NCBI GenBank assembly: GCA_022562855.1 | Contig: JADFON010000027.1 | Location: forward strand, 1 to 12,259 | From: Candidatus Zhuqueibacterota bacterium | GTDB lineage: Bacteria > SM23-31 | Reading direction: 5' to 3' | Length of the DNA stretch: 12,259 nt | In this document: piece after piece, positions 1,546 to 11,746 of the stretch | How the letters are laid out: every line of letters starts with the position of its first letter | Position numbering within the stretch: the stretch's first letter is position 1 | Made by a program: the position numbers and the translations under genes | The notes under the pieces: generated by a model | The model's input: the letters and a program-made list of their open reading frames with translations, nothing else | Told to the model about the DNA's origin: nothing | Database searches by the model: none

Positions 1546-3615
1546 TTACATTACAATCATATCAAGTAATTCCAGGATCTTCAGGTGATTTATCACACCC
1601 TGCAGGTCGGTAGTTCCCCGGTACTGGACATCAAGCATTTTCTTTATATCCAGTGCGCTATTTTTCCCGTTTATGAGCAGATTTATCTCATTGACGTTAG
1701 CTCCGTTTCTTGGATACTTTGACATTTCATCCCCAAGCCTCTGCTCTGCCATCTGGTTAGAGAACGTTTTCAAACTTTCATTTGGCTTGGCGACCATGTT
1801 CGATCCTTCTTTTTCCAGACCGGTCAACGCTATCTCAACAGGTTGAATGCCAAGATTATCAGCAGTAATTTCCATGTATGCGTCAAAAACCCGTAAATTC
1901 ACATCTTTTGCGTCATCTATGGTTTTCTGAAGATCATCGACATAATTATTCATTGATTTACTATCCGACATCAACTCCAGGGTTGTTTCTAACGTCGCTT
2001 TTTCATTAATTGCAGCCGCTTCAATATAACCGCGTGCTTTCAGGAATGAACGGTTAAAATCAGGGACTCCGGCTAAAGAAAGCTCCTCCATCGCCCTTGC
2101 AAGTTGATGTGCGATACGGTTCATTCCGTTGCTTGACACTTCACCCGCAATTTTTGCCGCCATATTATCGTCTGCCGAAGCGATCGTATATGCCGCCGCG
2201 AGTGAAACGAATGCCGCCCGTTTGAGTTGTGTCGGATCGGCTTTATCGGGTCTGTCACCCGACGTATGGTACCACTGGTCGGGCCAGGTGATCATCAAGA
2301 CTCCGGGTACCCGGACGCCCAATGCATTAAACACTTCATGGTCGGATGAGCCATAGTGAGTTTCAACAGACCAGTAGAACGGTTCCCGTGATCCGGTCGG
2401 GGCGACTATCGGTTTCAGTATCCTTTGACCCCTGCGATTTTGAAGTATTTCCCTGTTTGTCTGCCCAACAAACCGGAGATAATTTTCTACCACATCATTT
2501 ATGTAATGGGGATTCCCATACGTTGTGCGCATCACGGAATAGGTCGAATAGTTTTTTGTCAGCCATGCTCCCACCATATCCATGTTGATGTTGCAGAGTG
2601 TCCTGCTCATAATTTCCGGGTTAGCCGCAACCCAGGGTCGTGAACCGGAGAATTCTGGTATCCATAGAAACCTGATGGTACGTTTGGGTCTGGGGAGTCT
2701 CCCTTCATTGATAAGTGTATTCAAGGTTCTGGCGATTTCCAGGATAACCGAACTGCCGGAAATATCGTCGTTCGCACCCTGTTTAGCATAACCTTCGAAT
2801 AGATGGGCGGAAAGTATTATTTCATCGGCGTTTGGATCGGTTCCCTGAATATAGCCGGTCGGATCCTGTATTTCAAAAGGCACCATTTGTGCCTCAATCG
2901 TTACGTTCACCCTGATGTTTTCTCCCCTTAAGAGCCGGTCTTTTAACGGATATCCGTCAATCGGCGGAATTGTAAATCCGAACTTTGCATTATCCCCGGG
3001 TGTAACGCTTGCCCACTGGATTTGAGTAGGATCGAATGTCGGACGGGGTGAGTAAACAGAAATGACGCCTACGGCGCCAAAATTATCCGCCTGACGGATC
3101 AAATTCCCGACCGGGGCGTACGATACTGCAATCTTACCTTGCACATCGACTCCTTCAAAGTCCTGCGCTCTTCCTTCGCCAACCCAGACCAGGTCTGTAG
3201 TGACATCCGCACTTTGGCTGTTCCTTGCAAGCATTGCCGGAACTTCATCAAAGTCGGCAAGTTTCTGCCGTCTTGGGCTGACCTCCCAGATTTCCCCTTT
3301 TGTCACATCGAAAGTTGTGCCTCCCGGAAACCTGTCGATTCTTGCCCCGGCTATACCGTATTCCCTGAGCTTGCCCAGAACATATTCCGCCTCCCAGAAC
3401 GTTCCTGAATATTCGCTTTCGGGTCTGTTCCTGTTGTAGCCCGCCATTTCGATCATATGGCTCATAGCAGTTTCCCCGGAAAGCTCACCGATAATCTCAT
3501 CCACCAGGTTTTCCGGTAGAAAACTCCACGGCATCCACGGCGTCATTTGTGCGGTGGCTGGACCACAGAAAATCGCAACTATTGCGATCGTGGTCAAAAC
3601 TGTTTTACATTTCAT
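1546..3615 (-). CDS. Secreted M28-family (aminopeptidase-like) metallopeptidase with PA-type insert
   Basis: The protein has 689 residues. A Sec signal peptide (residues 1-22, cleavage ATA|Q) sends it to the periplasm or outside. Residues about 110-250 resemble a protease-associated (PA) insert, 255-475 carry the M28 zinc-peptidase core, and about 480-689 form a helical C-terminal region I cannot name. Core motifs in order are SAHLFEG (His271), GANDDISGS (Asp283, the usual bridging Asp), RFLWIPEFSGS (Glu321), NINMDMVGA (Asp346), SSDHEVF (Asp425-His426) and WYHTSGDRPDKADP (His450). Two differences from the usual family pattern stand out. The first motif reads H-L-F rather than H-x-D, and the Glu-Glu pair reads Glu-Phe. 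Four of the five usual metal-ligand positions remain, plus the general-base Glu, so it may bind one zinc, use a different ligand, or belong to an M28 side branch. AGGAG on the minus strand (3627-3623) supports the ATG start at 3615. It is transcribed alone, towards fdxA. Confidence 0.88.
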   Translation of the reverse strand: MKCKTVLTTIAIVAIFCGPATAQMTPWMPWSFLPENLVDEIIGELSGETAMSHMIEMAGYNRNRPESEYSGTFWEAEYVLGKLREYGIAGARIDRFPGGTTFDVTKGEIWEVSPRRQKLADFDEVPAMLARNSQSADVTTDLVWVGEGRAQDFEGVDVQGKIAVSYAPVGNLIRQADNFGAVGVISVYSPRPTFDPTQIQWASVTPGDNAKFGFTIPPIDGYPLKDRLLRGENIRVNVTIEAQMVPFEIQDPTGYIQGTDPNADEIILSAHLFEGYAKQGANDDISGSSVILEIARTLNTLINEGRLPRPKRTIRFLWIPEFSGSRPWVAANPEIMSRTLCNINMDMVGAWLTKNYSTYSVMRTTYGNPHYINDVVENYLRFVGQTNREILQNRRGQRILKPIVAPTGSREPFYWSVETHYGSSDHEVFNALGVRVPGVLMITWPDQWYHTSGDRPDKADPTQLKRAAFVSLAAAYTIASADDNMAAKIAGEVSSNGMNRIAHQLARAMEELSLAGVPDFNRSFLKARGYIEAAAINEKATLETTLELMSDSKSMNNYVDDLQKTIDDAKDVNLRVFDAYMEITADNLGIQPVEIALTGLEKEGSNMVAKPNESLKTFSNQMAEQRLGDEMSKYPRNGANVNEINLLINGKNSALDIKKMLDVQYRGTTDLQGVINHLKILELLDMIVM

Positions 3616-3872: not shown

Positions 3873-3990
3873 CATATTTTATTCAAAATATAAAAGTTAT
3901 TTTTCCATCTTTACACTGGAAATAAAGATTAATGAGGATATTTTCCACAAAAAGAGCAAGTTTTGTCTGCTGGGTTTCTTTGTCGAGAAG

Positions 3991-4020
3991 GTAAGTGTAA
4001 AGTGTTGACTTACTTTTACA
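3991..4020. promoter_or_regulatory. Overlapping inverted repeats at the operon promoter, candidate operator
   Basis: Two inverted repeats overlap the -35 box of the promoter at 4005-4033: GTAAGT (3991-3996) with ACTTAC (4008-4013), and TGTAAA (3996-4001) with TTTACA (4015-4020). Such symmetry over a -35 box is compatible with a dimeric repressor site. The DNA is AT-rich, so chance remains possible. Confidence 0.3.
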
Positions 4021-4033
4021 ATTTAAGTATATT
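4005..4033 (+). promoter_or_regulatory. Sigma70-type promoter of the five-gene operon
   Basis: TTGACT (4005-4010), exactly 17 bases, then TATATT (4028-4033): five of six matches to consensus in each box with ideal spacing. Transcription from about 4040 leaves a leader of about 100 bases before the ATG at 4140. It is the only good promoter I see ahead of the cluster 4140-11746. Confidence 0.65.
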
Positions 4034-4139
4034 TACCTTAATTAAAAATATTAAAAATCCTACGGCAATTTCTTCAGATTATAAGCCACTGTATTCTAAA
4101 TATAATCCTCCGGTAATTCGTCCGCTGGATGAGGATAAA

Positions 4140-5459
4140 ATGAAATTGAGCAGCAAAAAAGCGCCGATTTTTTATTTGCTTTCAAGCCTGTTAATTTCTC
4201 TCTTATTACTTAAGCCCGCTTCAGCGCAAACCAAAACCGCAACCGGAATCAGCCGCCCTGAGTATCACAAAATAAACGAACAACAAGTAGTCAGCCAACA
4301 GTTTTCACAAAGGGAACTTTGGGAACATATTGTTTCGTTTCCGGGGGACCTTTTATTCGTGCCGATAAGGATATTCTTCTTTGGGGTAAAACAGACAATA
4401 CAATTTGCCGATGAATCGAATCTCTTTAAGAAATTGAACGATCTGTTGACAGCAGACGATGGGAGCTGGGCAATCATGCCTTCCTATTCTTCCAGAACGG
4501 GAGGAGGATTAGATTATTTTCATTTTGTATCGGATACGTTAACCAGATTAACCTTTTCGGTATCCGCAGGATTGCGGAGGAGACAGGGTTACCGTTTGGG
4601 CTATGAGGGAGTTACCTTATTTGAAGGAAGGGCTGCTGCGGAATTCGAGGTGAGATATAGACTATATTCGGATGAAAGGTTTTACGGAATCGGACCGGAT
4701 TCGAATTTCGATAATGAAACCAATTACGCTCATGAACAGGTTTCGGTATCTGCTTCCGTATCGTCAAAGCTGGATGAAAATATTTCTTTTAACGGTGAAG
4801 CCGTAGTTGAAAGAAATAATATCCTGGGCGGCAGAAATTCCGCAACTCCATCAACAACAACCATATACCGGGATACCGGATTGCCGGGAATGGTAACAGG
4901 ATTGAAATTTACCCGCTTGAATCTCGAAATTATCCATGATTACCGCAATAATCGCGGCAGAACTACCAATGGCGGAATAAACCGGGTCAGGCTGGGTATC
5001 GTAAACGAAATCGACGGAGACAAATTTGGTTTCTGGCAGATTTCCCTCGATACCCGGAAATACTTTCATTTATTCTATAACCGCGTCCTGGTGGTAAGGG
5101 CGCATGGAACCTTTACAGAACCTTTTTTAAACCGTTCGATACCGTTCTACTATCTGAGTGACCTGGGACACCAGGAGACAATCAGGGGCTTCAGAAGGGG
5201 AAGATTCAGGGACAGGGACATGGCATTCGCTTCGGTGGAATACCGTTTCCCTGTTGCGCCGGCTCTTGATTCGTTTATATTTCTCGATGCCGGTCAGGTG
5301 GCTAAAAATCTTGTCAAGGATTTTTCAACCGCCGATCTGCAGTACGGTTACGGATGGGGCGTCAACATATTTAGCGAGAACCGTCTTGCCGCTCAATTTG
5401 TCATAGGAAAGAGTACCGACGGCTTCAGGGTTTATTTCAATTTCAACAAGGTATTTTAA
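4140..5459 (+). CDS. POTRA-less Omp85-family (BamA/TamA-like) outer-membrane barrel protein
   Basis: The protein has 439 residues. A Sec signal peptide (1-29, ASA|Q) is followed by about 80 residues and then alternating beta-strand sequence to the end. The Omp85 signature is HQETIRGFRRGRFRDRD (344-360), matching the conserved R-G-F of barrel loop 6, followed by a strand ending EYRFPV (367-372) and a final strand ending in Phe439, the usual outer-membrane beta-signal. The region before the barrel is too short for even two full POTRA domains, so it resembles the Omp85 types without an N-terminal chaperone domain. Its role may be passage or anchoring rather than general barrel assembly. The frame is open upstream to 3963, but GAGGA at 4131-4135, the signal peptide beginning exactly at 4140 and the promoter at 4005-4033 fix this start. 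It is the first gene of the operon; the next starts one base after its stop. Confidence 0.85.
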   Translation: MKLSSKKAPIFYLLSSLLISLLLLKPASAQTKTATGISRPEYHKINEQQVVSQQFSQRELWEHIVSFPGDLLFVPIRIFFFGVKQTIQFADESNLFKKLNDLLTADDGSWAIMPSYSSRTGGGLDYFHFVSDTLTRLTFSVSAGLRRRQGYRLGYEGVTLFEGRAAAEFEVRYRLYSDERFYGIGPDSNFDNETNYAHEQVSVSASVSSKLDENISFNGEAVVERNNILGGRNSATPSTTTIYRDTGLPGMVTGLKFTRLNLEIIHDYRNNRGRTTNGGINRVRLGIVNEIDGDKFGFWQISLDTRKYFHLFYNRVLVVRAHGTFTEPFLNRSIPFYYLSDLGHQETIRGFRRGRFRDRDMAFASVEYRFPVAPALDSFIFLDAGQVAKNLVKDFSTADLQYGYGWGVNIFSENRLAAQFVIGKSTDGFRVYFNFNKVF

Positions 5460-5460
5460 G

Positions 5461-7200
5461 GTGCAAAGTTTTCGATCAAATATACTCAATCCGCATTATT
5501 CCGGTGCGTCCGGCTCAGGATTAGTGAACTTAATGGCATTGTTGATGTTTTGCCTGTTACTATCATGCAGTGGTTCTAACCAATTCATAGCGCCTCAACC
5601 GCCTCCCGATGACATGCAGAATATTCCGCTGCCTCAAGAAAGGGAAATATACATAATTACGGACGGATTTGACAAACAGATAGTTGATAAAATCGGGGGG
5701 CTTCTTGATTTTTCCTATCAACTGAGAAAACTATTTGGAAAACCCAGAGAAGCGGCAAATGTCGATGCATTCGATGAAGTCTACAATTCTTCGTGGTTTA
5801 CCAACAGGAATGCGACAAAAGAGATGTCAATCGAGGAAATTGCGCGCGGAGCCGACACAGGCGCCGGTCCCGACGTTTCGGGCACCTGGTTGATAGTCAG
5901 CGCGAAAAACCAGGGTGTGACGCCTGGATTTGTAATCGTAGACAGCAGGGGAGTCGGTTATGTAATAAAGTTCGATCCTCCGGGCTATCCCGAACTTGCA
6001 AGCGGCGCCGAAGCAGTATCGACAAAATTATTCTATGCAGCCGGATATTTCACTGCCGAGAATTATATTACTGTATTCGACCCAAAAAATCTCGTTGTAG
6101 GAGAGGACGTTGAAATAACCGATGAACGGGGTCGTGAACGATATATGACTGAAGAGGACCTGCAAGTTATTTTACAGAGAATCCAGATAGGAGAAGACGG
6201 AAAAATTAGGGCGCTGGCAAGCAAATTTATCGTGGGAGAGGGTATCGGTCCTTTCCGTTATAAAAAAACCCGTAAAGATGATCCCAATGATCTAATTCCT
6301 CATGAAGACCGAAGGGAGCTTCGAGGATTACGGGTAATGGCGTCCTGGCTCAATCATTTTGACACAAAAGCAAACAATTCATACGATGCGTGGGTCACCG
6401 AAGGAAATGTGAGTTTTGTGAAACATTATCTTCTTGATTTCGGCTCGACTTTAGGAAGTATTTCCAGGGGTCCCATGCCGTACCATGTCGGGCATGAAAA
6501 CTGGGTAGACCCGACGGCTATTTTCAGAAAGAACCTGACATTGGGATTGCTGGTCGATGATTATGAAAAATTCTATGAGGTAAAATATCCCTCGATTGGT
6601 TTTTTTACACCGGTTAGCTTTCATCCTCAGAAGTATAAATTTATTTTTCCCAATCCTGCATTTAATAACATGACCGACCGCGATGGATTCTGGGGAGCTA
6701 AACTGGTAATGTCGTTTACCGATGAACAGATCGAAGCGGCGGTAAGGCAGGGACATTATTCAAACCCGGACGCCGCAGCATATCTTGTAAGCGTATTAAA
6801 GGAACGGAGAGATATAGTCGGGAGGTACTGGTACGGCAGGGTAAATCCTATCGATAACTTTGAGGTGATACCCGAATCAAGCGGACGACAATCTATAAAG
6901 TTTGAGAACCTGGCGGTGAAGAATAGATTAGCAGGAGCCCAGTCTTCGAATTACCGGTATTCGATTCGATTTGGAGACCGTGAATTAGTAACAAACAGGG
7001 AAACCGGGGGCGAGACGGTCATTCCGCTGCCGGATTTTCAGAATAATTCCGGCATGTATAGAGCTGCAGACGCAGAAAATCCAATAATTGTATCGATTCA
7101 AACACAACGAAACGGGGGAAAATGGAGTAAGGCGGTAAAGGTTTTCTTGCAGCCGGGCATTAATGGCAACAGCTTGACGCTTTTGGGAATCAAACGATAG
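5461..7200 (+). CDS. Lipoprotein with protein-kinase-like catalytic motifs
   Basis: The protein has 579 residues. The GTG start gives an n-region with Arg5, a hydrophobic stretch and a lipobox LLSC (Cys36), so it should be membrane-anchored outside the cytoplasm. I do not know a named family, but the middle reads like the core of a protein-kinase-like fold. GVGYVIKF (Lys170) resembles the ATP-binding beta3 Lys. Glu178 or Glu184 is followed by a helix and a hinge-like stretch. NHFDTKANN (Asp301, Lys303, Asn306) has the Asp-x-Lys-x-x-Asn spacing of the catalytic loop. LLDFGST (Asp326-Gly328) is a DFG motif 20 residues later. No classical Gly-rich loop is obvious. Residues about 460-579 look like a separate beta-rich domain. 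AAGG at 5448-5451 can serve as a ribosome site. It follows the barrel gene by one base, so the two are probably translated together. Kinase activity, substrate and nucleotide source are inferences. Confidence 0.72.
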   Translation: MQSFRSNILNPHYSGASGSGLVNLMALLMFCLLLSCSGSNQFIAPQPPPDDMQNIPLPQEREIYIITDGFDKQIVDKIGGLLDFSYQLRKLFGKPREAANVDAFDEVYNSSWFTNRNATKEMSIEEIARGADTGAGPDVSGTWLIVSAKNQGVTPGFVIVDSRGVGYVIKFDPPGYPELASGAEAVSTKLFYAAGYFTAENYITVFDPKNLVVGEDVEITDERGRERYMTEEDLQVILQRIQIGEDGKIRALASKFIVGEGIGPFRYKKTRKDDPNDLIPHEDRRELRGLRVMASWLNHFDTKANNSYDAWVTEGNVSFVKHYLLDFGSTLGSISRGPMPYHVGHENWVDPTAIFRKNLTLGLLVDDYEKFYEVKYPSIGFFTPVSFHPQKYKFIFPNPAFNNMTDRDGFWGAKLVMSFTDEQIEAAVRQGHYSNPDAAAYLVSVLKERRDIVGRYWYGRVNPIDNFEVIPESSGRQSIKFENLAVKNRLAGAQSSNYRYSIRFGDRELVTNRETGGETVIPLPDFQNNSGMYRAADAENPIIVSIQTQRNGGKWSKAVKVFLQPGINGNSLTLLGIKR

Positions 7201-7216
7201 GATTGAGGAAGACCAG

Positions 7217-8449
7217 TTGAATTTCACTTTCAAATACCCTGATAAGATAAAATTAATCGCATACTGTTTATTGATTTGCATTTTTTTTGCTTGTGCCCAA
7301 AGAGGTCTTCTCAGTGACGATTATCCCGATATTGCCGGTACTCCAAAGCTGCCGCCGGATGAATACTATAACGAAAACCCCACTTTTATTGCTTTTGCCG
7401 ATTCGCGACCGGGATGGAAGGCTCTCGAGAAGTTTTTAAAACCGGATAATTGGTTTACCTGGAAAATGCTGCTCTTTCCGTTCTATGAGATTTATTGGAT
7501 TTGGAATGGATTTATCGGTGGTATAGAAGCGTTGAGAGGCGATACCGAATTCGGGAAAAAAGAAAGAATCTTAGTTAGACAGGCAATCTACAATGAGGCA
7601 AAGCGGTCCGGCGCCGATTTCCTCCTTTCAAGCGAATTTGTATACGACGGTAGATATCCCCATGAATGGCTCCGGTTTTTGAAAGAAATCGAAGAGCATC
7701 CACTGCTCAATGACATTCCGCTTCTTCCCGTGATTGGTAATCACGATTTTTACGGCGATACTGAATTCGGAAAGCGCAATTATGAATATGTGTTTGATTA
7801 TCCACCGTTTTATACGCTGGAATTTCCCGATATGGTGCTTATAGTCGTAAATTCCGGGATATTGTTGGACCAGAATCAATTGATAGATGATGATGAACAA
7901 GACGCTTTGTTCAGCAGGTGGTATGTTTCCGATGACGGTAATCCGGAAAAATCCTGGCTTGAAAATGTATTGATTAATACAGACAAAACCTTTACAATAC
8001 TTTCCATGCACCATACCCTGATCTCTTCGGGAATACATCACTCTGATTGGGATAATACCGATAACGGAAGGAATCTTCACGAGAAAAGACAAAAACTAAT
8101 TGCTTTGCTTAAGGAATATGGTGTTCAGCTTATTCTGAGCGGACATGAGCATCATTACGAGCATTATGTTCTCAATTATCAAAAAGAAGGTAAACAAGAA
8201 ATGCACTTTGTTGTCGGCGGCGGCGGCGGCGTACCGCTCAGAAATATCCCCGATCAAACCGTAATCGACCGTTACCTCACCGAATACTCGAACAATGGGT
8301 TCGACGTTGAGCAGGTGAAATTGGAAAAAATATTTAATTACTCATTAGTTGAAGTCGAAGCCGAACGCGTGACGGTTAAGACTTACCGGGTGCCGATATC
8401 GGGTGAAAATGCAGTAATCCTTGTAGAAGAATTCATTATAAACAAATAG
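7217..8449 (+). CDS. Calcineurin-like metallophosphoesterase lipoprotein with altered metal motifs
   Basis: The protein has 410 residues. The TTG start is backed by GAGGA(A) at 7205-7210, six bases upstream. It begins with a hydrophobic segment and a weak lipobox FFAC (Cys26), so it is probably a lipoprotein. Metallophosphoesterase motifs in order are ADSRPG (Asp62, with Arg64 where D-x-H has His), LLSSEFVYDGRYPHEW (Ser139-Glu140 where the family has Gly-Asp), a perfect GNHD (174-177), MHHT (His265-His266) and SGHEHH (309-313). A later VVGGGGGVP turn is also typical. The Arg in motif I occurs in other members that read DSR. Loss of the bridging Asp in motif II is less common and could lower activity or change the metal. 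The gene starts 16 bases after the kinase-like gene, suggesting opposing or linked jobs. The substrate is unknown. Five tandem GGC codons (8216-8230) encode the Gly run. Confidence 0.83.
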   Translation: MNFTFKYPDKIKLIAYCLLICIFFACAQRGLLSDDYPDIAGTPKLPPDEYYNENPTFIAFADSRPGWKALEKFLKPDNWFTWKMLLFPFYEIYWIWNGFIGGIEALRGDTEFGKKERILVRQAIYNEAKRSGADFLLSSEFVYDGRYPHEWLRFLKEIEEHPLLNDIPLLPVIGNHDFYGDTEFGKRNYEYVFDYPPFYTLEFPDMVLIVVNSGILLDQNQLIDDDEQDALFSRWYVSDDGNPEKSWLENVLINTDKTFTILSMHHTLISSGIHHSDWDNTDNGRNLHEKRQKLIALLKEYGVQLILSGHEHHYEHYVLNYQKEGKQEMHFVVGGGGGVPLRNIPDQTVIDRYLTEYSNNGFDVEQVKLEKIFNYSLVEVEAERVTVKTYRVPISGENAVILVEEFIINK

Positions 8450-8463
8450 AATTACTTTTTAGC

Positions 8464-11238
8464 ATGAGAAATTTTCTCGAAAGAACATTGAATATTCGTA
8501 AAGGCGAAGCAGCCGTAACGCTGTTAATGCTCGGCTATATTTTCCTTGTATTATGTATATATTACTTATTGAAACCGGCAAGGGATGCGCTGTTTCTTGG
8601 CGATAAGTCCTGGACCGACCTTCCCTATGTTTTTATACTTATTGGGATTGTGGCAGTCCCGGTCAATTTCCTGCATGCTGCTGCAAGCAGAAAATTTCGT
8701 CTGAATAAGCTGATCATAATAACTTTTTTGATCCTGGCGTCAAATCTTATCCTGATCCGGTTGATAATGAATTATGAATTTGCCTGGACTGCCTATGTTT
8801 TTTATATATGGGTGAGTATTTACGGAGTATTGGTAACTTCACAATTCTGGCTGTTCGCAAATGCGATTTTTACACCGCCGCAGGCAAAACGGCTTTTTGT
8901 TCTTTTTGGCTTTGGAGCTATAATAGGAGCGTTCGCAGGAGGTGAGATTACTAACATTCTGTCAGATTTTATGTCGGGACCAAATCTTCTCTTCGTGTGT
9001 ATGGGGCTTTTATTGCTTTGTATCGTTTTGGTATACGCTATCACGCTATTGAAGCGAAAAGATCTGGAAGAAAGACCTGCGGGTTCACGAAATAAAGAAA
9101 AACCGAAAGAGAGTTTCGCTCAAGTAATCGAGTCCATTAAGAGTTCCCGTCACCTTTTATTAATCGTCGGCATTATCGGGATGACAATGGCGACTGCTTC
9201 ATTCGTAGATGTTCAATTTAAAGCAACGGTACAGGCAGAATTTGCAGGCGATGTAGATGGAATGCGTGCGTTTCTCGGCGTTTTTTACGGTAGACTGAGC
9301 CTTGTATCCCTTTTGATGCAGTTGGTATTTACCCGGTTTGTCCTGAAGCGGATTGGGGTTGGGGGCATCATCATGTTTCTGCCTCTCGGGTTGATTCTCG
9401 GTTCTGCTGCTATGTTTTTGATGCCTGGCTTAATCGCAGGAGTTTTGTTAAGAGGAGCCGACGGTTCTTTGAAATACTCGATTGACAAAACGGGAAGAGA
9501 GCTTTTATTCCTGCCTGTCCCGATTGAAGTAAAAAACCGGGTGAAGATTTTTATAGACGTAATCGTTGACAGATGGGCGCGCGGTTTATCCGCCGGTTTT
9601 ATTCTTCTGTTTCTGTACATTTTCGGTGAGGAAGTGAGACTGCTCAGCATTGCCGTACTGGCAATGCTCGTAATCTGGATGTTTTTTATTATCCTGATAA
9701 GAAAAGAATATGTTTTTGCGTTTAGGAAGGCTATCGACCGCAGAGACATCGACCCGGATGAATTGAGGATCAATATACAGGATGCATCGAATATTGACAG
9801 CCTGATTCGTACGGTAAAAAGTGATAACGATAAGCAAGTGTCGTATGCCCTTGACATGCTTTCTTCTGCAAAAGATGTGGAATTGACCGAACATCTCGCC
9901 CCTTTACTCAATCATGATCTAAAGAGTATTCGTCTGAAAGCGCTTACATTGTTACGGAATCAAAAAGATGATACTCTACAACCGCAAATGGAAAAACTCC
10001 TTCAGGAAAAAGACCCGGAGATTCAACTTGAGGCTATGCGGTACTTGTGCTCCCGGGCGGGTGAAAACCGAATGTCCTTGATTGAGGGATACCTGAATCA
10101 GCCGGATCCATGTTTGAAAGCTACCGCTCTTATTTGTGCATCGGAAGAAGCCGGAACAGACATCCGGAAATTTGTAAATGCAGAAACTATAGAAGCGTTG
10201 TTGCGCGAATCCGGCGATGAATCTGAATTTTGCAGGATTCAGGCTGCGCGTGCTGTAGGAAACATACACGATACTGAAACACGTTCAATATTATTGAAAT
10301 TAATCGACGACAAATCGCCGGTGGTAGTTCGGGAAGCATTGAAGAGTATCGGTCGTACGCAAGACCGGGATTTTATTCCGGTTTTGATAAAAAGAATCGG
10401 AGATAAAAACTATAAGAACGATTTTCGTGAAACTATCACTGCATATGGAATAAAAGTGGTAGGCACGTTAAGCGATTATCTTTCCGATGAAACCGTTGAT
10501 AAAAATGTTAGAAAACACATACCGGCAGTATTGAGTAAAATACCCGTTCAGGAATCGGTAAACGTTTTGATTGCAAACTTAAGCAAAGCCGAAACCCCTG
10601 TCAAATATTTTATATTGAAGGCGATAAACAAACTTCATGAAAATTATCCCGAATTGCGGATCAATCCGAAAAAGGTCGATTCAGTTTTCCTGGACGAAAC
10701 AAAAACGTATTATGAAATATTGCAGATACTGCATTTACATAAGAATGACAATGGTAATGAGGCTGCGGCTTTGCTGAGAAAGGCTCTTGAAGAGGAATTG
10801 GATCACAATCTGGAGCAGATATTTCGTGTTCTCGGTCTTAAATACCATTGGAAGGATATCCTACTCGCATACCTGGGAATAACAAGCGATAGAGCCGTGC
10901 TCAGGGACAATGCAATCGAGTACTTAGACAATATTCTTGGAATAGACCACAAGAAATACCTTCTTCCGTTACTTGACCGCGGCGCTGATGAAATTGCGAT
11001 AAAGCATGGTCGAAGCATGTTTGCAATTAAAGAAATGACCATGGGAGACTCGATAGAGTATCTTATTCTGAGTAATAATGCCTGGTTGAAAACATGCGCT
11101 ATTTATTATTTGAAAGACCATAAAGTGGATAACTTCGAAAGTCTGAAAGCGCAGATTGTTGAATCGATCAACGATGCAAATCCGTTTGTAAGCGAAACTG
11201 CAAAACTTGTATCCGGAGAAATAAACAAACTAAATTAA
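8464..11238 (+). CDS. ATP/ADP-translocase-like (Npt/MFS-type) membrane protein with HEAT-repeat tail
   Basis: The protein has 924 residues. Residues about 15-415 hold roughly twelve membrane helices with the pattern of the Npt/TLC nucleotide-translocase group: YYLLKPARDALFLGD (33-47), QFWLFANAIFTPPQAKRLF (127-145), GAFAGGEIT (155-163) and LKYSIDKTGRELLFLPVP (336-353). A charged loop at about 196-226 divides the two halves. Residues about 440-924 are soluble, formed by repeated helix pairs of HEAT/Armadillo type (for example DPEIQLEAMRYLCSR and SPVVVREALKSIG), and would probably lie in the cytoplasm as a binding scaffold. True ATP/ADP exchange is documented in obligate intracellular bacteria and plastids. 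Homologues with HEAT tails in free-living bacteria have no settled substrate. The gene starts 14 bases after the previous stop, with no clear Shine-Dalgarno sequence before the ATG. Its size, more than double a plain transporter, comes from the repeat tail. Confidence 0.85.
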   Translation: MRNFLERTLNIRKGEAAVTLLMLGYIFLVLCIYYLLKPARDALFLGDKSWTDLPYVFILIGIVAVPVNFLHAAASRKFRLNKLIIITFLILASNLILIRLIMNYEFAWTAYVFYIWVSIYGVLVTSQFWLFANAIFTPPQAKRLFVLFGFGAIIGAFAGGEITNILSDFMSGPNLLFVCMGLLLLCIVLVYAITLLKRKDLEERPAGSRNKEKPKESFAQVIESIKSSRHLLLIVGIIGMTMATASFVDVQFKATVQAEFAGDVDGMRAFLGVFYGRLSLVSLLMQLVFTRFVLKRIGVGGIIMFLPLGLILGSAAMFLMPGLIAGVLLRGADGSLKYSIDKTGRELLFLPVPIEVKNRVKIFIDVIVDRWARGLSAGFILLFLYIFGEEVRLLSIAVLAMLVIWMFFIILIRKEYVFAFRKAIDRRDIDPDELRINIQDASNIDSLIRTVKSDNDKQVSYALDMLSSAKDVELTEHLAPLLNHDLKSIRLKALTLLRNQKDDTLQPQMEKLLQEKDPEIQLEAMRYLCSRAGENRMSLIEGYLNQPDPCLKATALICASEEAGTDIRKFVNAETIEALLRESGDESEFCRIQAARAVGNIHDTETRSILLKLIDDKSPVVVREALKSIGRTQDRDFIPVLIKRIGDKNYKNDFRETITAYGIKVVGTLSDYLSDETVDKNVRKHIPAVLSKIPVQESVNVLIANLSKAETPVKYFILKAINKLHENYPELRINPKKVDSVFLDETKTYYEILQILHLHKNDNGNEAAALLRKALEEELDHNLEQIFRVLGLKYHWKDILLAYLGITSDRAVLRDNAIEYLDNILGIDHKKYLLPLLDRGADEIAIKHGRSMFAIKEMTMGDSIEYLILSNNAWLKTCAIYYLKDHKVDNFESLKAQIVESINDANPFVSETAKLVSGEINKLN

Positions 11239-11293
11239 ATACCGGATTCGAAAATAATTGTTTTGATTATTCCACAAAAGAGGTAACGACGCT

Positions 11294-11746
11294 ATGCTGA
11301 CAGCAATTGAAAAAGTCATATTTTTGCAAAACGTAGACATATTTACCGAAGTCCCGACCGAACATCTCGCCTATCTTGCTGCAATATCCGAAGAGGTTCG
11401 GTTTCTTACAAAAGATGACATTTATAAAGAGAATGACGCGGCGGATTCGCTCTACGTGGTAATGGACGGAAAGATAAAACTTCACCGGGACGGAGATGAA
11501 ATAACGGTCGCCGGACCGAATGAAGCATTTGGAACATGGGCGCTGTTCGATGAGAAACACAGGGTAGCAACGGCAACCGCGGTCGAGGATTCCAAGCTGC
11601 TCAGGATAGACAGGGAAGATTTTTATGACATTCTGACAGACCATGTTCAGATAATTGAAGGAATTTTCAAAACATTGGTAACAAAGCTTCGGGGAATGCT
11701 CGACCGTGTCAGCAGCGGTTTTCCTAAGAAAGACGTGAAAGAATAA
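11294..11746 (+). CDS. Single-domain cyclic-nucleotide-binding-like protein
   Basis: The protein has 150 residues, almost all one cNMP-binding (CRP-type) domain: a short helix (1-15), the DIFTEVPTEHL entry motif (15-25), a beta-roll with DSLYVVMDGKIKLHRDGDEI (51-70), and a phosphate-binding cassette FGTWALFDEKHRVATATA (79-96), then a C-terminal helix. Arg90, which holds the cyclic phosphate in the family, is present. The Glu of the usual F-G-E, which binds the ribose, is Thr81, so ligand affinity or identity may differ. No HTH domain follows, so it is not a CRP-like transcription factor. AGAGG (11279-11283) lies 10 bases before the ATG. It is the last gene of the operon, 55 bases after the transporter-HEAT gene; such domains are sometimes fused to or next to this transporter type, which suggests it gates or binds the HEAT tail. 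Confidence 0.83.
   Translation: MLTAIEKVIFLQNVDIFTEVPTEHLAYLAAISEEVRFLTKDDIYKENDAADSLYVVMDGKIKLHRDGDEITVAGPNEAFGTWALFDEKHRVATATAVEDSKLLRIDREDFYDILTDHVQIIEGIFKTLVTKLRGMLDRVSSGFPKKDVKE

Follow-up and report, generated by a model that had tools for sequence, protein, structure and literature searches.

KIN, a kinase-like protein encoded in a 12,259-nucleotide stretch of DNA (the window; positions 1 to 12,259 of contig JADFON010000027.1, assembly GCA_022562855.1) from a Candidatus Zhuqueibacterota bacterium, is a bacterial lipoprotein with a conserved lipid anchor motif. It carries the catalytic residues of the protein-kinase-like superfamily, is homologous at the profile level to HipA-like kinases, and is encoded almost always beside an Omp85-type barrel. 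On the basis of these observations (the anchor motif, the catalytic residues, the HipA-like homology and the gene linkages) we judge it just probable that KIN works outside the cytoplasm as a kinase anchored to the outer membrane, belongs to the HipA/Fam20-like branch of that superfamily and acts with its barrel. Two rivals are serious, namely that KIN is a pseudokinase partner of the barrel, or a kinase-fold enzyme with some other chemistry.

A conserved lipid anchor and conserved kinase residues

The initial annotation of this DNA, made from its letters, had read in the open reading frame at 5461-7200 a lipobox at Cys36, a VIK motif at Lys170, helix-C candidates at Glu178 and Glu184, an HFDTKANN loop with Asp301, Lys303 and Asn306, and a DFG motif at 326 to 328. 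All are present at those positions (Table 1). The gene begins with GTG, one base past the stop codon of the gene upstream. The motif behind the extracytoplasmic anchoring that had been proposed is conserved across the family, the lipobox cysteine being present in 34/34 alignment rows that extend to position 36. The residue at +2 from this cysteine is Gly, Ala, Ser or Thr, and Asp in none of the 34 members. In E. coli, the absence of Asp at +2 favors sorting to the outer membrane; because Asp never occurs there in KIN, we favor an outer-membrane placement. Toward the C-terminus, residues ∼462 to 568 of the predicted model match FN3 domains by structure comparison.

The family alignment comprises 36 rows with 25 to 57% identity to the window protein. 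In these rows the Lys, the Asp, the Asn and the DFG Asp occur in kinase order, with Asn306 at +5 from Asp301. Lys170 is invariant, and Asp301, Asn306 and Asp326 are each retained in 35 of the 36, so that the four residues whose loss the annotation had named as decisive against a kinase-like core are conserved. Its helix-C candidates fared less evenly: position 184 is Glu in 29 rows (Ser in six) and Glu178 is found in 20, and we therefore prefer Glu184. Lys303 occurs in 23 rows (Arg in seven) and the DFG glycine, Gly328, in 27, so neither is essential to the family. A divergent subfamily (loci L031-L035, L024 and L010), with 25 to 29% identity to the window protein, often has DFD rather than DFG.

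These data bear on the first rival, which holds that KIN retains the fold and a nucleotide or ligand site and serves the Omp85 barrel as a structural or sensory subunit, like BamB-E, with no catalysis. The fact that one subfamily has lost the helix-C Glu would suit it, as would the near-obligate pairing with the barrel described below, the FN3-like interaction domain and the general scarcity of free ATP in the periplasm. However, near-invariance of the Lys, Asp, Asn and DFG Asp despite low identity is unusual for a dead kinase, and phosphate- and nucleotide-related genes recur near KIN. We consider the pseudokinase unlikely, though a serious contender.

Relationship to known kinases

Searched as a single sequence, the window KIN matched nothing significantly in Pfam, NCBIfam or the PDB sequences; nothing passed the cut-off in Pfam or NCBIfam, in agreement with the annotation's remark that it knew no named family, and by these searches the KIN family is unnamed. 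When Pfam was searched member by member, sub-threshold matches to HipA_2 were obtained for five proteins (best E 0.016) and to HipA_C for four (best E 0.026); no KIN reached the curated cut-off of either family, and the window protein gave no match. We compared profiles with hhalign, using the KIN core (residues 120-465 of the window protein) as the query and, on the HipA_2 side, about 30 HipA_2 proteins gathered for comparison. HipA_2 (PF20613) aligned over 146 columns with a probability of 72% and an E-value of 3.5e-5, in a register that pairs YVIK170F with YVVKF, Glu184 with the helix Glu, the NHFD301 loop with TNVD and LLD326FG with LIDHG; HipA_C (PF07804) gave an E-value of 1.6e-3. Controls were 150 block-shuffled profiles and a reversed profile. 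The HipA_2 score was 46.3 versus a shuffle maximum of 35.4, and the HipA_C score 33.0 versus 23.0, both also exceeding the reversed profile, while the negative control profiles (NTT, phosphoesterase, Omp85 and cNMP) gave E-values of 0.25 to 0.86. CotH (PF08757), suggested as a relative in the annotation, was rejected at the profile level, its hhalign score of 19.7 falling inside its own shuffles (maximum 25.3).

The annotation had also proposed structure prediction with a fold search, which returned kinase matches from a model of low confidence. An AlphaFold2 model built from seven sequences has an N-lobe in kinase order, with strands, the strand bearing Lys170 and a helix with Glu184, followed by the catalytic-loop and DFG region. 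Foldseek listed Golgi casein kinase Fam20C and CtkA among the first matches to this model. VIA-align, over KIN residues 131-467, gave its best kinase match to Helicobacter CtkA (3akk; Z score of 8.8 over 200 residues and 12% identity), followed by Hydra Fam20 (Z score of 8.1 over 211 residues and 8% identity); these Z scores are near the tool's ambiguous level, and the structural line is insufficient by itself. The CtkA match is limited to the kinase core and leaves out the lipid anchor and the FN3-like domain of KIN. Fam20 structures (4kqa, 5xom) are tentative fold matches to KIN 131-464, at 8 to 12% identity. Fam20 acts outside the cytoplasm and needs imported nucleotide, as would KIN; it is, however, a eukaryotic lumenal protein with disulfide cysteines, whereas the window KIN has no cysteine beyond Cys36 and hence no disulfides. 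KIN may function in the manner of an extracytoplasmic kinase of the Fam20 type while being, by profile, a distant HipA-like relative.

Three lines, the weak Pfam matches, the hhalign alignments and the fold matches of the model, agree in pointing to a kinase fold, and homology of the KIN core to HipA-like kinases is supported at the profile level. The kinase-like core of the initial annotation thus gains support from residue conservation, from profile-profile homology to HipA-like families and from the CtkA and Fam20 matches. That the motif order is a coincidence within another conserved enzyme family would account for the want of a significant single-sequence match in Pfam, NCBIfam and PDB and for the low model confidence, but a profile-profile match with the residues in register scored above all shuffles and two kinase structures align with the core over its full extent, and we regard such a coincidence as very improbable.

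Conserved gene context

Gene context, absent from the initial annotation, is the strongest functional clue. An Omp85-type barrel gene adjoins KIN in 41 of 42 testable cases, lying upstream in 38, with a median gap of 5 bp and often an overlap. The KIN gene at L103:999-2654 is the sole one with room upstream that lacks a barrel neighbor. Conversely, among the relatives of the window barrel in 82 genomes, the top 18 (E 6e-20 or better) comprise 16 that adjoin a full KIN and one that adjoins a KIN fragment at the edge of a contig; the other (G131:C278) has no KIN neighbor. A barrel of this type with no KIN beside it lies at L184:5154-6461. HipA and KIN share the Lys, Glu, Asp and DFG-type Asp in register (on the HipA side a YVVKF strand, an AE helix, an N.D loop and IDHG), but HipA proteins reside in the cytoplasm and frequently have a HipB partner. 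KIN, by contrast, is lipid-anchored, has an FN3-like domain and is partnered by an Omp85 gene, and no HipB-type partner was found among the testable cases.

The second recurrent neighbor is an NTT-type carrier (TLC ATP/ADP carrier), encoded within 8 kb of KIN in 19 of 47 cases. An NTT match was found in 15 of 16 KIN-bearing genomes versus 8 of 66 others (Fisher p 7e-10, uncorrected for phylogeny). NTT domains fused to HEAT repeats (NTT-HEAT) are also encoded without KIN (L068-L072), and a short NTT of ∼445 residues occurs mostly in KIN loci. In L007, L055 and L056, genes for a sodium/phosphate (Na/Pi) cotransporter and PhoU lie between KIN or a phosphoesterase and the short NTT.

The gene pair encoding NTT-HEAT and a cyclic-nucleotide-binding domain (cNBD) protein in free-living bacteria was described in 2017 by Major et al., who report its function as unknown (PMC5381601). 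Window positions 8464-11746 have the architecture and gene order set out there; the passages cited here mention no kinase-like lipoprotein or Omp85 neighbor. A POTRA-less "noNterm" Omp85 subfamily was described by Heinz and Lithgow in 2014, together with PF00149 domains fused to other Omp85 barrels (PMC4104836). The window barrel likewise lacks POTRA but is encoded on its own, in linkage with a kinase-like lipoprotein. In the open-access literature searched we found no description of the KIN family, of its gene pairing or of such extracytoplasmic or secreted bacterial kinases.

A possible role at the outer membrane

From the anchor, the residues and the linkages we infer the catalysis of KIN, its substrate, its topology, its partnership with the barrel, and the direction and source of nucleotide flow, as follows. 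The lipid anchor and an N-terminal linker would tether to the outer membrane a two-lobed kinase domain followed by the C-terminal FN3-like domain. There KIN would work with the co-encoded POTRA-less barrel, whether by partnering it or by being carried to the surface as its cargo. KIN would transfer phosphate from a nucleotide to some envelope or surface substrate. The co-encoded phosphoesterase could reverse this reaction or recycle its products, the Na/Pi cotransporter and PhoU of some loci could recover phosphate, and inner-membrane NTT transporters could feed KIN by exchanging cytoplasmic for periplasmic nucleotide. To our knowledge, ATP is not expected in the periplasm and bacterial phosphorylation by kinases is thought of as cytoplasmic; if true, the proposed activity would give it a new compartment, outside the cytoplasm. 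It would also offer a concrete, testable role for the NTT proteins of free-living bacteria, reported to be of unknown function (PMC5381601). Should KIN prove catalytically dead, a lipoprotein of kinase fold that is paired almost obligately with an Omp85 barrel would still represent a novel type of barrel partner. A broader proposal, that many bacterial phyla perform ATP-dependent outer-membrane phosphorylation by a lipoprotein kinase with a dedicated Omp85 barrel, supplied by NTTs and balanced by a phosphoesterase and phosphate re-uptake, is speculative and we think it doubtful.

Several observations weigh against KIN being an active, NTT-fed kinase. Asp301, Asn306 and Asp326 are each substituted once among the 36 rows, and Glu184 is replaced by Ser in most members of the divergent subfamily, a loss that would fit inactivity of some members. 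The model has a mean predicted local distance difference test (pLDDT) score of 57, with the C-lobe poor at below 50; a second prediction of the trimmed core from eight sequences reached a pLDDT of 44.6 and was not used, and the Foldseek E-values to kinases were 6e-3 to 5e-2. The window phosphoesterase has an altered motif II (S-E for G-D). On the sequence examined, no NTT is encoded within 8 kb for 28 of the 47 KIN genes, and the residues of the NTTs themselves, aligned to AtNTT1 and to the ADP,ATP carrier of 9j3n, add to this list. We compared the positions of K155, E245, E385 and K527 of AtNTT1, charged residues on which its ATP/ADP exchange depends. Of these, the two lysines K155 and K527 are important in binding the nucleotide, and E245 in translocation (PMC3306366). 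At the four positions the window NTT-HEAT has F/S/D/R, other NTT-HEATs F/A/D/T and most short NTTs A/G/E/D, with small variations in both groups. All four charges (K/D/D/K) are present only in the short NTTs of L050, L078 and L079. By these residues, a part of the KIN-linked NTTs could plausibly exchange nucleotides, and the remainder may transport a different substrate. Because most KIN-linked NTTs lack the charges of ATP/ADP exchange, we rate the supply step low, and it is the weakest step of the kinase reading.

The same residues lend weight to the second serious rival, in which KIN has another chemistry, either AMPylation or the transfer of phosphate to a sugar, a lipid or a small molecule instead of a protein, and takes part in envelope glycan or lipid processing or in extracellular phosphorus salvage with the phosphoesterase, the Na/Pi cotransporter and NTT. 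The substrate of most NTTs may differ from ATP/ADP, phosphate-uptake genes lie within the cluster, PAP2 and Ppx/GppA-like genes are present in L106, and the kinase fold has precedents, since SelO AMPylates and Fam20B phosphorylates xylose. No substrate-specific signature was found, however, and the phosphoesterase and Na/Pi genes are confined to a minority of loci. We hold such chemistry to be improbable, if a serious alternative to the protein-kinase-like reading that we favor.

Window operon, distribution and further observations

The barrel gene through the cNMP-binding gene (3963-11746, + strand) form an apparent operon, with gaps of 1 to 16 bases among the first four genes. Translation of the barrel probably starts at an inner ATG; Omp85 is its sole Pfam match, and Pfam found no POTRA in it. 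Homologs of the phosphoesterase adjoin KIN in L045, L048, L055 and L056. Motif I has no His in the phosphoesterase family (D-x-Q/R), a pattern that resembles purple acid phosphatases; because of this missing His and the altered motif II, the window enzyme may be altered or inactive. The window NTT-HEAT scores 61.2 bits against a PF03219 cut-off of 21 and is homologous to 9j3j and 9j3n, and its order before the cNMP-binding gene is repeated in L043, L045, L056, L057 and L058. Upstream of the barrel lie the end of a NuoN-like gene, a ferredoxin gene and an M28 peptidase gene (minus strand). Defense-system models found a match in the HEAT repeats of the NTT protein alone, and none matched KIN, the phosphoesterase or the barrel. 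The window comes from a draft genome of 2.5 Mb that is ∼80% complete.

Table 1. Features of the window and of related loci. Coordinates are those of the window unless a locus is named.
Feature	Coordinates	Strand	Basis
Omp85-superfamily barrel without POTRA, signal peptide ...LLLKPASA	3963..5459	+	Pfam Omp85 2e-15 at 198-469
KIN, kinase-like lipoprotein, 579 residues	5461..7200	+	lipobox Cys36, kinase-like core ∼130-467, FN3-like domain ∼462-568
Cys36, lipobox cysteine (LLS-C-SGS), +2 residue Ser	5566..5568	+	alignment
Lys170 (VIK), candidate beta-3 lysine	5968..5970	+	36/36 rows
Glu184, candidate helix-C glutamate	6010..6012	+	29/36; Ser in most of divergent subfamily
D301-T-K-A-N-N306 (HFDTKANN), candidate catalytic loop	6361..6378	+	D 35/36, N 35/36
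D326-F-G328, candidate metal-binding DFG	6436..6444	+	D 35/36
Metallophosphoesterase lipoprotein (lipobox FFA-C)	7217..8449	+	Pfam Metallophos 1.2e-13
NTT (TLC ATP/ADP carrier) domain fused to HEAT repeats	8464..11238	+	Pfam TLC 1.1e-16, HEAT_2 5e-20
Cyclic-nucleotide-binding domain protein, after NTT-HEAT	11294..11746	+	Pfam cNMP_binding 3.3e-19
M28-family peptidase with signal peptide	1546-3615	-	divergent from barrel operon
Na/Pi cotransporter and PhoU-domain protein	L055:4224-6027, L056:4991-6725, L007:1488-3245		
Third NTT kind, short, K/D/D/K	L050:8661-9983, L078:1417-2748, L079:510-1847		

KIN relatives occur in assemblies labeled Poribacteria, Calditrichota and Bacteroidota. The family profile search found KIN in 11 of 290 broadly sampled genomes; within one phylum it is present in 15 of 82 genomes, a sixteenth carrying a fragment at a contig end. 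A scan of viral contigs with the family alignment gave no KIN relative. Many KIN loci are flanked by histidine kinases or response regulators. In a different bacterial family, L106 (424-11340) is an unusually dense phosphate-themed locus with KIN, the barrel, two NTTs, a Ser/Thr kinase, a Ppx/GppA-like protein and PAP2. Two KIN-barrel pairs per locus are found in L050, L049, L061 and L057, suggesting paired paralogs, and the KIN match of genome G321 (L098) is listed with one in-frame TAG.
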